From Chloroflexota bacterium (GTDB taxonomy: Bacteria > Chloroflexota > Dehalococcoidia > Tepidiformales > Tepidiformaceae), in NCBI GenBank assembly GCA_016234445.1, contig JACRBT010000005.1, forward strand, positions 1 through 64,000: a DNA stretch of 64,000 bases, written 5' to 3'. Position numbers and translations under genes: made by a program. Shown here one piece after another: positions 2,549 through 53,915 of this stretch (its first letter is position 1; every line of letters begins with the position of its first letter). A model generated the notes under the pieces. The model did not search any database. It saw nothing but the letters and a program-made list of their open reading frames with translations, and was not told where the DNA came from.

Positions 2549-3319
2549 TCAGCGCGCGGCCGCCTCGACTGCGGACGTCAGGTCCACCGGCTGGTCCGGC
2601 GGGACGACGAGCGTCCCCTCGGCGATGGCCCGCAGCGTTTCCACGAGGAACGGGCGTTCGCGTTCGACCCCGCGCCGGCGAATGTCGAGGTAGAGCAGCG
2701 ACTTCTCCATCTGTTCGCGCGAGGCGCCGTAGTCGGCGGTGGCCCAGAGGGGTTCGTTGGCGCGATCCCGGATCGGGTAACGGCAGAAGCTCACCGCCGG
2801 CCCGCGGTCCACGTCGCCGGTGACGACGTTCATCATGCAGCCCGACTCCGTGGCGCCGGTGCGGATCAGCTCGCAGATCACTTCCTGGTAGGTGCCGATG
2901 GGGCCGTCGGGCAGCGCCGGGTGGTCGTTGATGAAGCGGAAGCGCGAGTGCAGCGGCTCGGTCGCGATAAGCATGTAACCGAACATAACGCCGAGTTCGA
3001 AGCGATAGCTGGCGAGCCGTTCCGCGACGGCCGCGTCGTATTCGAGCCGCCACGGCTGCAGGGGCTCGCCCGGCCGCGAAAGCTTCCCTCCCCGCTGCTT
3101 CCGGAACGCCACCGAAGACAGCGTCTCGACGGCAATTCCCTGCTCCCGGGCGAAGGCGATGAGGCGGTCCGTGGGTTCCGCTTCGCCCGGGTCGCGGTTC
3201 AAGAAGACCACCGCAATCTCGACCGGCAGCCCCTCCTCGATCGCCTTGATCACGTACTCCAGGGCGCCGAACGAACCCGGCCCCCGCCCCGTCGTCAGCC
3301 AGGCGATCCTGAGCGGCAC
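2549..3319 (-). CDS. Formyltransferase-like protein (GART/methionyl-tRNA formyltransferase superfamily)
   Basis: A 256-residue protein that starts like formyltransferases (MPLRIAWLTTGRGPGS, with a Gly-rich loop). It keeps the catalytic triad pattern: N131 and H133 in NDHPALPDGP and the aspartate in VTGDVDRGP (residues 167-173). The family transfers formyl groups from 10-formyltetrahydrofolate, as in PurN, Fmt and sugar formyltransferases. The central part differs from purN and the genomic context is not purine synthesis, so the acceptor substrate is open. Downstream on this strand are the zinc-ribbon and ABM genes; upstream is repeat-rich DNA. Confidence 0.72.
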   Translation of the reverse strand: MPLRIAWLTTGRGPGSFGALEYVIKAIEEGLPVEIAVVFLNRDPGEAEPTDRLIAFAREQGIAVETLSSVAFRKQRGGKLSRPGEPLQPWRLEYDAAVAERLASYRFELGVMFGYMLIATEPLHSRFRFINDHPALPDGPIGTYQEVICELIRTGATESGCMMNVVTGDVDRGPAVSFCRYPIRDRANEPLWATADYGASREQMEKSLLYLDIRRRGVERERPFLVETLRAIAEGTLVVPPDQPVDLTSAVEAAAR

Positions 3320-3369
3320 GCTAGTGCCCTTCCCACTTGGTGTGGATGAAGCCCGTCAACGCCCGCGTT

Positions 3370-3411
3370 CCCCTCGCCCACCGCAGTGGGAGAGGGGGCA
3401 GGGGGTGAGGG
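3370..3411. repeat. GC-rich palindromic repeat, copy 1 (CACnnAGTGGG family)
   Basis: An intergenic copy of the family seen again inside 3436-3580 and 52771-52914 and at 16790 and 31298. It has a C-rich left arm (CCCCTCGCCCACCG), a central CAGTGGG, then GAGAGGGGGCAGGGGG. The arms pair around the centre, so it can form a hairpin and may act as a terminator or mRNA-stabilising element after the formyltransferase-like gene. Confidence 0.65.
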
Positions 3412-3435
3412 CCGGCGTGGCGTTGGAGCGGCACG

Positions 3436-3580
3436 CTAGTACTTCGCAAAGAAAGTTGGCGCTGGGAGGTTCCACGCGCTACCCGGCTCACTCCCCCTCT
3501 CCCAACGAAGTGGGAGAGGGGGCCGGGGGGCGAGGGGGCCTCGCAGCGATCGATCTCTAACTTACGCAAGTGAGTACTAG
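3436..3580. mobile_element. MITE-like element with CTAGTACT inverted ends, copy 1
   Basis: A 145-bp element nearly identical, by eye about ten differences, to 52771-52914. It begins CTAGTACT (3436-3443) and ends with the exact inverse AGTACTAG (3573-3580). A second matching block (AAGTT in both ends) follows further in. The interior carries one GC-rich palindrome (3491-3538). No coding capacity is credible. The terminal CTAG supplies the TAG stop of xseB (3577-3579). It fits a small non-autonomous element; no matching transposase lies in the window. Confidence 0.7.
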
Positions 3581-3843
3581 TCCTCGACCTCGCCGTATTC
3601 GGCTTCGACTTCGCGCAGGTCCATGCGGTCTTCGTCGAGCCGGCCCTGGAGCTTTCGCACCCGCAGCTCCGCGGACTCGAGGACGTCCCGTAACCGGTCG
3701 ACCAGCGCCGCGCCTTCTTCGTAGAGCTTGAGCGACTCTTCCAGCGGCAGGTTGCCCGCTTCCAGGCGGCGGGCTTTCTCTTCGAGGGCCGTGTAAAGGT
3801 CTTCGAACGACGGCTGGGGTTCGTCCTTGGGGGCGCGTGCCAT
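3577..3843 (-). CDS. xseB: Exodeoxyribonuclease VII small subunit
   Basis: An 88-residue acidic helical protein with the XseB signature: SFEDLYTALEEKARRLEAGN then LPLEESLKLYEEGAALVDR, and a short C-terminal acidic tail. Several copies assemble with one XseA to degrade single-stranded DNA into oligonucleotides in the cytoplasm. It follows xseA by 41 bp on the same strand. A TAGGCT hexamer (3851-3856, this strand) ends 7 nt before the ATG with no Shine-Dalgarno, so it may have its own leaderless promoter. Its TAG stop lies within the terminal CTAG of a MITE-like element. Confidence 0.93.
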   Translation of the reverse strand: MARAPKDEPQPSFEDLYTALEEKARRLEAGNLPLEESLKLYEEGAALVDRLRDVLESAELRVRKLQGRLDEDRMDLREVEAEYGEVED

Positions 3844-16720: not shown

Positions 16721-16789
16721 ACGGCGGCACTATACAGCCCGCGCCGGAGCCCGCTCGCCTCGCACGTCGCGCCCGCAGGGCGCCAAAGA

Positions 16790-16835
16790 CCCCCCCTCGC
16801 CCACGAAGTGGGAGCAGGGGGCCGGGGGGTGAGGG
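16790..16835. repeat. GC-rich palindromic repeat, copy 3
   Basis: It contains the CCCACGAAGTGGGAG core with C-rich left and G-rich right arms. It sits between dprA and the lipase-like gene, 4 bp from the lipase TAG stop (16840-16842 on the minus strand), where its hairpin could end transcription. Confidence 0.65.
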
Positions 16836-16839
16836 GCCC

Positions 16840-52770: not shown

Positions 52771-52914
52771 CTAGTACTTCGGACAGAAAGTTGGCGCTGG
52801 GAGGTTCCACGCGCTACGCGGCTCACTCCCCCTCTCCTCACGAAGTGGGAGAGGGGCCCGGGGGGTGAGGGGGCCTCGCAGCGATCGATCGCTAACTTAC
52901 GCAAGTGAGGCTAG
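52771..52914. mobile_element. MITE-like element with CTAGTACT end, copy 2
   Basis: 144 bp, near-identical to 3436-3580, with CTAGTACT at the left end and CTAG at the right end (the right end reads GAGGCTAG rather than AGTACTAG). It contains one GC-rich palindrome (52827-52871). The terminal CTAG supplies the TAG stop of sucD (52911-52913, minus strand). Confidence 0.7.
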
Positions 52915-53795
52915 AGCAGTCCGCGCTCCTGGAGTGCGCGCTTCATGGTGCTTCCGATTTCGGCCGGCGAATCGCTCACGTAGGCCCCGGCGGCCCGGAG
53001 CGCGGCCTTCTTGTTCTCGGCCTTGCCGTCTTCGCCGGAGATGATCGCCCCGGCGTGGCCCATCCGCCGGCCCGCGGGCGCCGTGGCCCCCGCGATGAAG
53101 GCGACCACAGGCTTCTTCACCTTCTCCTTGATGTAGACGGCGGCTTCCTGTTCGGCGCTCCCGCCGATTTCGCCCACCATCACGATCGCTTTCGTCCCCG
53201 GGTCTTCGTTCAGCATCCGGATCGCCTCGACCTGGCGCGTGCCGATGATCGGGTCGCCCCCAACGCCAATGCACGTGCTCTGGCCGATGCCGAGGTCGGT
53301 CAGCTGGGCGACGACTTCGTAGACCAGCGTCCCTGAGCGGCTGACGACGCCGACGCCGCCGGGCAGGAAGACGTCCCCGGGCATGATCCCCACCCGTGTC
53401 TTCGTCCCCGGGGTGATGACGCCCGGGCAGTTCGGGCCGATGAGCGTGGTCCCGCTCCCGAGGAGGGCGCGCTTCACCGTCACCATGTCCAGCACGGGGA
53501 TGCCTTCCGTGATGCAGACGACCAGCGGGATCTTCGCCGCCGTCGCTTCGAGGATGGCGTCCGCCGCCCCGGGCGCCGGCACGAAGATGATGCTGACGTT
53601 GGCCCCGGTGTCCCGGACCGCGTGGTCGACGGTCGTGAAAATCGGGACGCCGTCCTGCTGTTCGCCGCCGCGGCGAGGGTGGATGGCGGCGACGACGTTC
53701 GTGCCGTAGGCGATGGAACGGCGCATGTGGTTGGCGCCCTCCGTGCCGATGCCCTGGACGAGAAGACGGGTGTTCTGGTCGACGAGAACTGCCAT
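52911..53795 (-). CDS. sucD: Succinyl-CoA ligase alpha subunit
   Basis: A 294-residue protein. CoA-binding Rossmann start ([14 protein letters not shown]), [11 protein letters not shown], and the phosphorylated histidine H247 in [10 protein letters not shown]. It makes GTP or ATP in the TCA cycle with a beta subunit. No sucC is adjacent: the next gene upstream is CYTH-CHAD. The ATG at 53793-53795 ([10 protein letters not shown]) is the start. Its TAG stop lies in the terminal CTAG of the MITE-like element. Confidence 0.92.
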
Positions 53796-53915
53796 GGGAG
53801 CGAAGTCCGGTGTGCGATTTCCGGTTCGGGAAGCGGCCATCTGGCGGCGTCCCAGGGTTCGGAGGCCCGGCGTTTCAGGATACAGGGAACGCCCGTTAGT
53901 GTCCGGCCCGGGGAC

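Follow-up and report, generated by a model that had tools for sequence, protein, structure and literature searches.

RUP, a 107-bp repeat of S. pneumoniae, is small, intergenic and free of open reading frames; it has IS630-like ends and TA-containing targets, and its mobilization by IS630-Spn1 has been proposed (PMC2229807). IS630 of Shigella sonnei, a member of the same family, is described in the passages of PMC2170065 that cite the original work (Tenzen 1990, 1991) as inserting at the TA within 5′-CTAG-3′ and duplicating TA; the preference is credited there to Tenzen and Ohtsubo (1991), and ISY100 is likewise given as duplicating TA. MITEPsy1 of Pseudomonas syringae is a 100-bp MITE found at CTAG or YTAA (PMC3189936). 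In the case of the pneumococcal BOX repeat, 36 genes end on a stop codon encoded by the repeat, with no strong evidence for truncation (PMC3049150). The intrastrand-triplex (TM/PIT) motifs of E. coli include a type B with the pattern CCCTCTCCC-loop-GGGAGAGGG-CCG-GGGTGAGGG (Holder et al., 2015, Table 1, PMC4666352). The E. coli copies are reported without a link to transposons, and a related motif had neither promoter nor terminator activity in earlier work (all per PMC4666352). IS630-related MITEs (RUP), CTAG targeting (IS630, MITEPsy1) and stop-encoding repeats (BOX) are already known.

The element, its copies and its IS630-family relatives

The window, a stretch of 64,000 nucleotides (bases 1–64000 of contig C8), belongs to a genome of the class Dehalococcoidia (Chloroflexota), 3.54 Mb in 20 contigs and 97% complete (G000). 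It contains two copies of a small inverted-repeat element. Copy 1 (3436..3580, plus strand, the orientation being that which puts the relict transposase 3′ end on the right) is 145 bp long, with ends that read CTAGTACTTCGC...AAGTGAGTACTAG, or in their longer form CTAGTACTTCGCAAAGAAAGTTGG...CTAACTTACGCAAGTGAGTACTAG. Its left terminal repeat (3436..3461, plus strand) is CTAGTACTTCGCAAAGAAAGTTGGCG, its right end spans 42 bp (3539..3580, plus strand) and its terminal CTAG lies at 3577..3580. Copy 2 (52771..52914, plus strand, 144 bp) is 94% identical to copy 1 over 139 bp (E 1e-56), which is far beyond chance. A preliminary description had assigned the same ends to both copies; this holds for the left end and overall, but the right end of copy 2 is altered to GAGGCTAG and reads AAGTGAGGCTAG, the AGTACTAG end being lost there, the sole small error of that account. 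The AAGTT block that it noted in both copies is present and belongs to a terminal inverted repeat that extends over ~26 bp. Genome-wide, a third full copy (C2:440080-440224, 90% identity, E 1e-50) and a fourth, shorter one (C5:80581-80701) bring the total to 4 full and ~15 degraded copies at unrelated sites, 74–94% alike to copy 1 and none with an intact transposase. The ends form a repeat of ~26–30 bp, distinct from the repeat that occupies the middle (3491-3538).

The same ends enclose other interiors in other families of the class Dehalococcoidia. An exact search of GTDB genome contigs with the right end gave one Chloroflexi contig, broken off at the element, and a search allowing 2 mismatches in 400 genomes of the phylum matched only the window's own genome. 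The ends thus diverge fast, and only a model of 30 positions could follow them: it detected them in 44 of 393 genomes of the class. Its training set consisted of ends that bear CTAG, which builds in part of the conservation seen at the ends; the test of reading frames given below is unaffected.

The parent of these ends was traced through a transposase fragment of genome G003. Used as a protein query against the 393 class genomes, it matched at 72% identity a relative in G686, a genome of the same family as the window's, within a complete insertion sequence of 1116 bp bounded by CTAGTACT...AGTACTAG ends. The right 42 bp of the MITE align to the 3′ end of this insertion sequence (CCTCGGCGATCGATCGCGGACTTTCGTGAGTGAGTACTAG) and match that of the IS630-family element in G003. 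At the left, 18 of 21 bp match the G686 end (score 30; shuffled sequences gave a mean of 13.6 and a maximum of 27). Furthermore, when aligned to the 3′ end of the insertion sequence, the right end of copy 1 retains relict C-terminal codons of the transposase, R-S-I-S-N-L-R-K-stop (TGA), at 3547..3573 on the plus strand. The relict reads RSISNLRK-stop in copy 1, RSIANLRK-stop in copy 2 and RSIANLRK, with the stop lost, in the third copy; genuine transposases end in ...RRSIADFRE* (G686) and ...KPTIAELRK* (G003). A weight matrix built from 23 ends was used to scan around the DDE_3 transposases of relatives: the stop codon of the G003 transposase falls within an end scoring 31 bits, and G450 holds a second complete IS630 with CTAGTACT...AGTACTAG ends. 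The proteins from G003, G686 and G450 are IS630 transposases (NF033545 above its curated cut-off, with PF13358 DDE_3 and HTH_32 matches). In G686 the transposase (L095 1488-2603, G686:C161) is split into two frames, one with the HTH_32/HTH_29 portion and the other with DDE_3. The split may reflect programmed frameshifting or decay, and because of it this closest parent may be inactive or frameshift-using.

Searches of the window's own genome with the PF13358 profile and with protein queries both returned no IS630 transposase. The autonomous partner is without trace there and present in related genera; as partners can be lost, its absence weakens no more than the idea that the element still moves today. 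Given this lack of a transposase and the divergence among copies, the elements of this genome look immobile and old, and resemble fossils. Many of the ends in G461, G449 and G453 coincide with the border of a contig or come close to it, which suggests near-identical and more recent copies. The mobile parent called for by the MITE reading of the preliminary description has, in terms of both ends and relict C-terminus, been located in the IS630 family, among relatives rather than in the genome itself. It is very likely that the element is an internally deleted, non-autonomous MITE derived from this (Tc1/mariner-like) family and inserting at CTAG. It is a new member of the IS630-derived MITEs, and its own family is new in the literature searched.

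Target site and gene ends

CTAG is scarce in the window: 14 occur, where base composition predicts 178 and a Markov model 84, and 4 of the 14 are the ends of the two elements. Most two-ended copies are arranged as C-TA-GTAC...GTRC-TA-G, with unrelated flanks outside the CTAG. The pattern is seen on right sides and on most left sides, but several left ends in the own genome read CTGG or CCAG (TG or CA in place of TA). Insertion into CTAG, as first proposed, is supported by the end arrangement and the IS630 parent and departs from the expected form at those left ends; because IS630 inserts at the TA of CTAG and the copies show the C-TA-G arrangement, the target duplication is probably TA and not CTAG. 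A joined-flank search in three congeneric pairs (six genomes) gave no empty site. The nearest case is a site occupied differently in two congeneric genomes, G449 and G028. At one gene-end CTAG their flanks agree as far as ...CTCACTAG, from which G449 goes on into an CTAGTACT element and G028 into another CTAG-bounded element (TGTGGTG...CACCACA) followed by an CTAGTACT element, so that homology breaks exactly at CTAG. In L227 (G028:C185), the small CTAG-bounded element directly next to the CTAGTACT element, TGTGGTGTTTCTAACGC...GCACCACA, is unrelated to it.

Both elements of the window lie at gene ends. The gene for the exodeoxyribonuclease VII small subunit, xseB (3577..3843, minus strand, an open reading frame of 88 aa; TIGR01280, E 4e-17), has its TAG stop in the CTA at 3577-3579 of the terminal CTAG of copy 1. 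The succinyl-CoA ligase alpha gene, sucD (52911..53840, minus strand), has its TAG within the terminal CTAG of copy 2 (52911-52914). The same association holds across the class. With genes taken as open frames, some of the counted ones being merely open frames, and with ends within one MITE family not fully independent, an upstream ORF of at least 150 codons closes on the element TAG at 39 of 135 distinct xTAG ends; the two remaining frames give 12 and 4. Counted by longest frame, the ratio is 38:8:3 (p = 3e-10; 135 ends from class-wide loci). At control CTAGs the TAG frame is used in 64 of 748, without a comparable frame bias. When elements with both ends are considered, 25 of 52 have at least one such ORF stop, and among control CTAGs in non-coding sequence 47 of 166 do (p = 0.011); these controls were drawn from the same loci, and genes were recognized in them by a crude criterion.

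The proteins checked are of normal length. In XseB, SucD, GAPDH, porphobilinogen synthase, NadA, LysA and a PhoB-like regulator, the match to the family model stops no more than a few positions short of the end of the profile. These normal C-termini in 7 of 7 checked proteins argue that the element reuses a stop codon which was already in place, and insertion seems not to have visibly shortened or lengthened the seven proteins. The preliminary description had the element supply the stop codon of xseB: the stop does lie inside the terminal CTAG, but is better seen as an existing one reused. Its proposal that such an element can enter gene ends without damage agrees with the CTAG targeting, the strong class-wide link between ends and stops, and the normal proteins. 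There is one counter-example, a convergent sucD in G449 in which the CTA is a leucine codon. Elements of this kind sit at the 3′ end of sucD in genera that are distant from each other (window 52911-53840; L127; L227), a recurrence that reflects either independent insertion or site preference.

In the mechanism proposed, an ancestral IS630-type DDE transposase acting in trans would have recognized the ~26-bp ends, cut the element out and inserted it at the TA within a CTAG, with duplication of this TA, and would later have been lost from the genome of the window. The putative pre-insertion site at xseB is GAGGTCGAGGA-CTAG-CGTGCCGC, with one CTAG between the gene and the flank. After insertion the gene would still read ...NNC-TAG and the protein would be unaltered. 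As there is a strong depletion of CTAG and TAG stops account for many of the non-coding sites that survive, viable insertions would build up at gene ends. Most of the stop association is thus ascribed to CTAG targeting together with the presumed loss of damaging insertions, with a modest extra preference possible. The siting of some bacterial MITEs at stop codons may then be explained simply, by choice of CTAG and purifying selection, and a function tied to the stop codon need not be invoked.

The triplex-type core and alternative readings

The middle of copy 1 (3491..3538, plus strand) is a G/C-rich core of three blocks, CCCTCTCCC-loop-GGGAGAGGG-GGGCGAGGG, and fits the type B pattern save for one T-to-C change in the third block; copy 2 has its core at 52826..52873 (plus strand). 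The core is a known intrastrand-triplex repeat carried within the MITE, and triplex formation is predicted. Alone, the core has 46 matches in the own genome, where full elements are few; it is frequent without the ends and occurs in related genera as well. In this IS630 derivative the triplex repeat appears to have taken the place of the original middle or to have become joined to it. Such elements enclose the triplex core in G003 as well, and cores resembling it lie within them in G028 and, in one case, in G442, possibly by descent from one ancestral capture. A role of the core as an intrinsic terminator was dropped, there being no T-run after the hairpin.

Several observations concern the triplex motif and its surroundings. 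Beside copy 1, an exact 15-bp direct repeat, GAGCGGCACGCTAGT (3311-3325 and 3426-3440, spanning 3311..3440), bounds a second triplex core at 3370-3411. Sequence from the end or start of a gene is duplicated in tandem, or present as direct repeats, together with an element or triplex core here (3311-3440), at G000:C5:79251-79560 (L074) and at G000:C2:350820-351330 (L072); these arrangements fit the reported instability of triplex loci. Outside the MITE, triplex motifs of the own and related genomes are often placed flush behind stop codons in a single orientation (as at 16789-16839 of the window). In 19 of 51 distinct non-MITE copies an ORF of at least 100 codons ends 0–12 nt before CCCTCACC, compared with 2 at the other border; 12 of the 19 do so at 0–1 nt, and the stops of the 19 are TGA (8), TAG (7) and TAA (4). 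For the motif in E. coli no preferred distance is reported (PMC4666352). These loci include L018, L020, L024, L025, L028, L030, L044, L053 and L066, among others. Elsewhere in the class, the IS630-ended MITEs of other genera have different dispersed sequences as interiors, hairpin-like and exemplified by TTCGACAAGCTCAGGGTGAGC and GAGATTCTTCGCTGCGCTCAGAATGACA (L127, L132-L135, L157-L168, L192-L207), as if the ends had repeatedly acquired whichever short repeat was common. It is conceivable, though doubtful, that the IS630-type ends of Dehalococcoidia are a general vehicle that acquires and spreads short G/C-rich hairpins, including the triplex motif (otherwise without a known mobile carrier), and that CTAG/stop targeting settles this cargo at gene ends.

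The excess of paired elements at stops of long ORFs, and the strong hairpin formed by the core, could also mean that the elements actively favor gene ends, or that the stops are kept for a benefit to the host such as a bidirectional 3′-end signal, beyond CTAG targeting and purifying selection. The excess over controls is only ~2-fold, with the limits of those controls noted above, and for the related E. coli motif earlier work is reported to have seen neither promoter nor terminator activity (PMC4666352), so that an added preference or function of this kind is improbable. The nature of the parent can be questioned as well. CTAG stands at both element ends, MITEPsy1 duplicates CTAG or YTAA (PMC3189936) and IS701 elements duplicate 4 bp (PMC2266710), which would suit a MITE of another family with a 4-bp CTAG/YTAR duplication, of IS701 or IS5 type as for MITEPsy1. 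An IS701 (DDE_5) origin was rejected on a search for PF13546, which was found in 0 of 11 genomes, most of them repeat-bearing, and in two control genomes, the search covering this one profile. The ends, which match IS630-family insertion sequences and encode the C-terminus of an IS630 transposase, argue strongly against both families and make such a parent very improbable. Scarcely credible, finally, is an immobile extragenic repeat of REP or triplex type whose flanks are common by descent or recombination. The core does outnumber the full element and often occurs without the ends, but the ends form a class-wide repeat of their own, around unrelated interiors and on complete insertion sequences and transposase genes, which refutes this reading. 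An IS630-derived MITE with a triplex-type core remains the preferred reading.

Comparison with described systems

The literature searched holds no report of CTAG-targeting MITEs tied to stop codons. As far as that literature goes, the element family, the quantified link between CTAG and TAG, and the triplex motif inside a MITE are new. Although it resembles RUP in design, the element is unrelated to it in sequence and differs in its CTAG target, triplex core, relict transposase codons and a partner insertion sequence that is gone from the genome. IS630 of Shigella sonnei, in contrast, is autonomous with its own transposase, and in the cited passages stop codons are not linked to it. MITEPsy1 has ends that resemble the IS5-family ISPsy2 and a duplication of 4 bp. 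The ends of BOX have been compared with ISSpn2 rather than with an IS630-family insertion sequence, and a CTAG target is not the explanation for its stop codons. Lastly, whereas the TM/PIT motifs reported in E. coli lie outside transposons, the core described here follows the type B pattern with small changes and sits within IS630-derived MITEs, so that in Dehalococcoidia a triplex-forming repeat of wide distribution is part of a transposable element.
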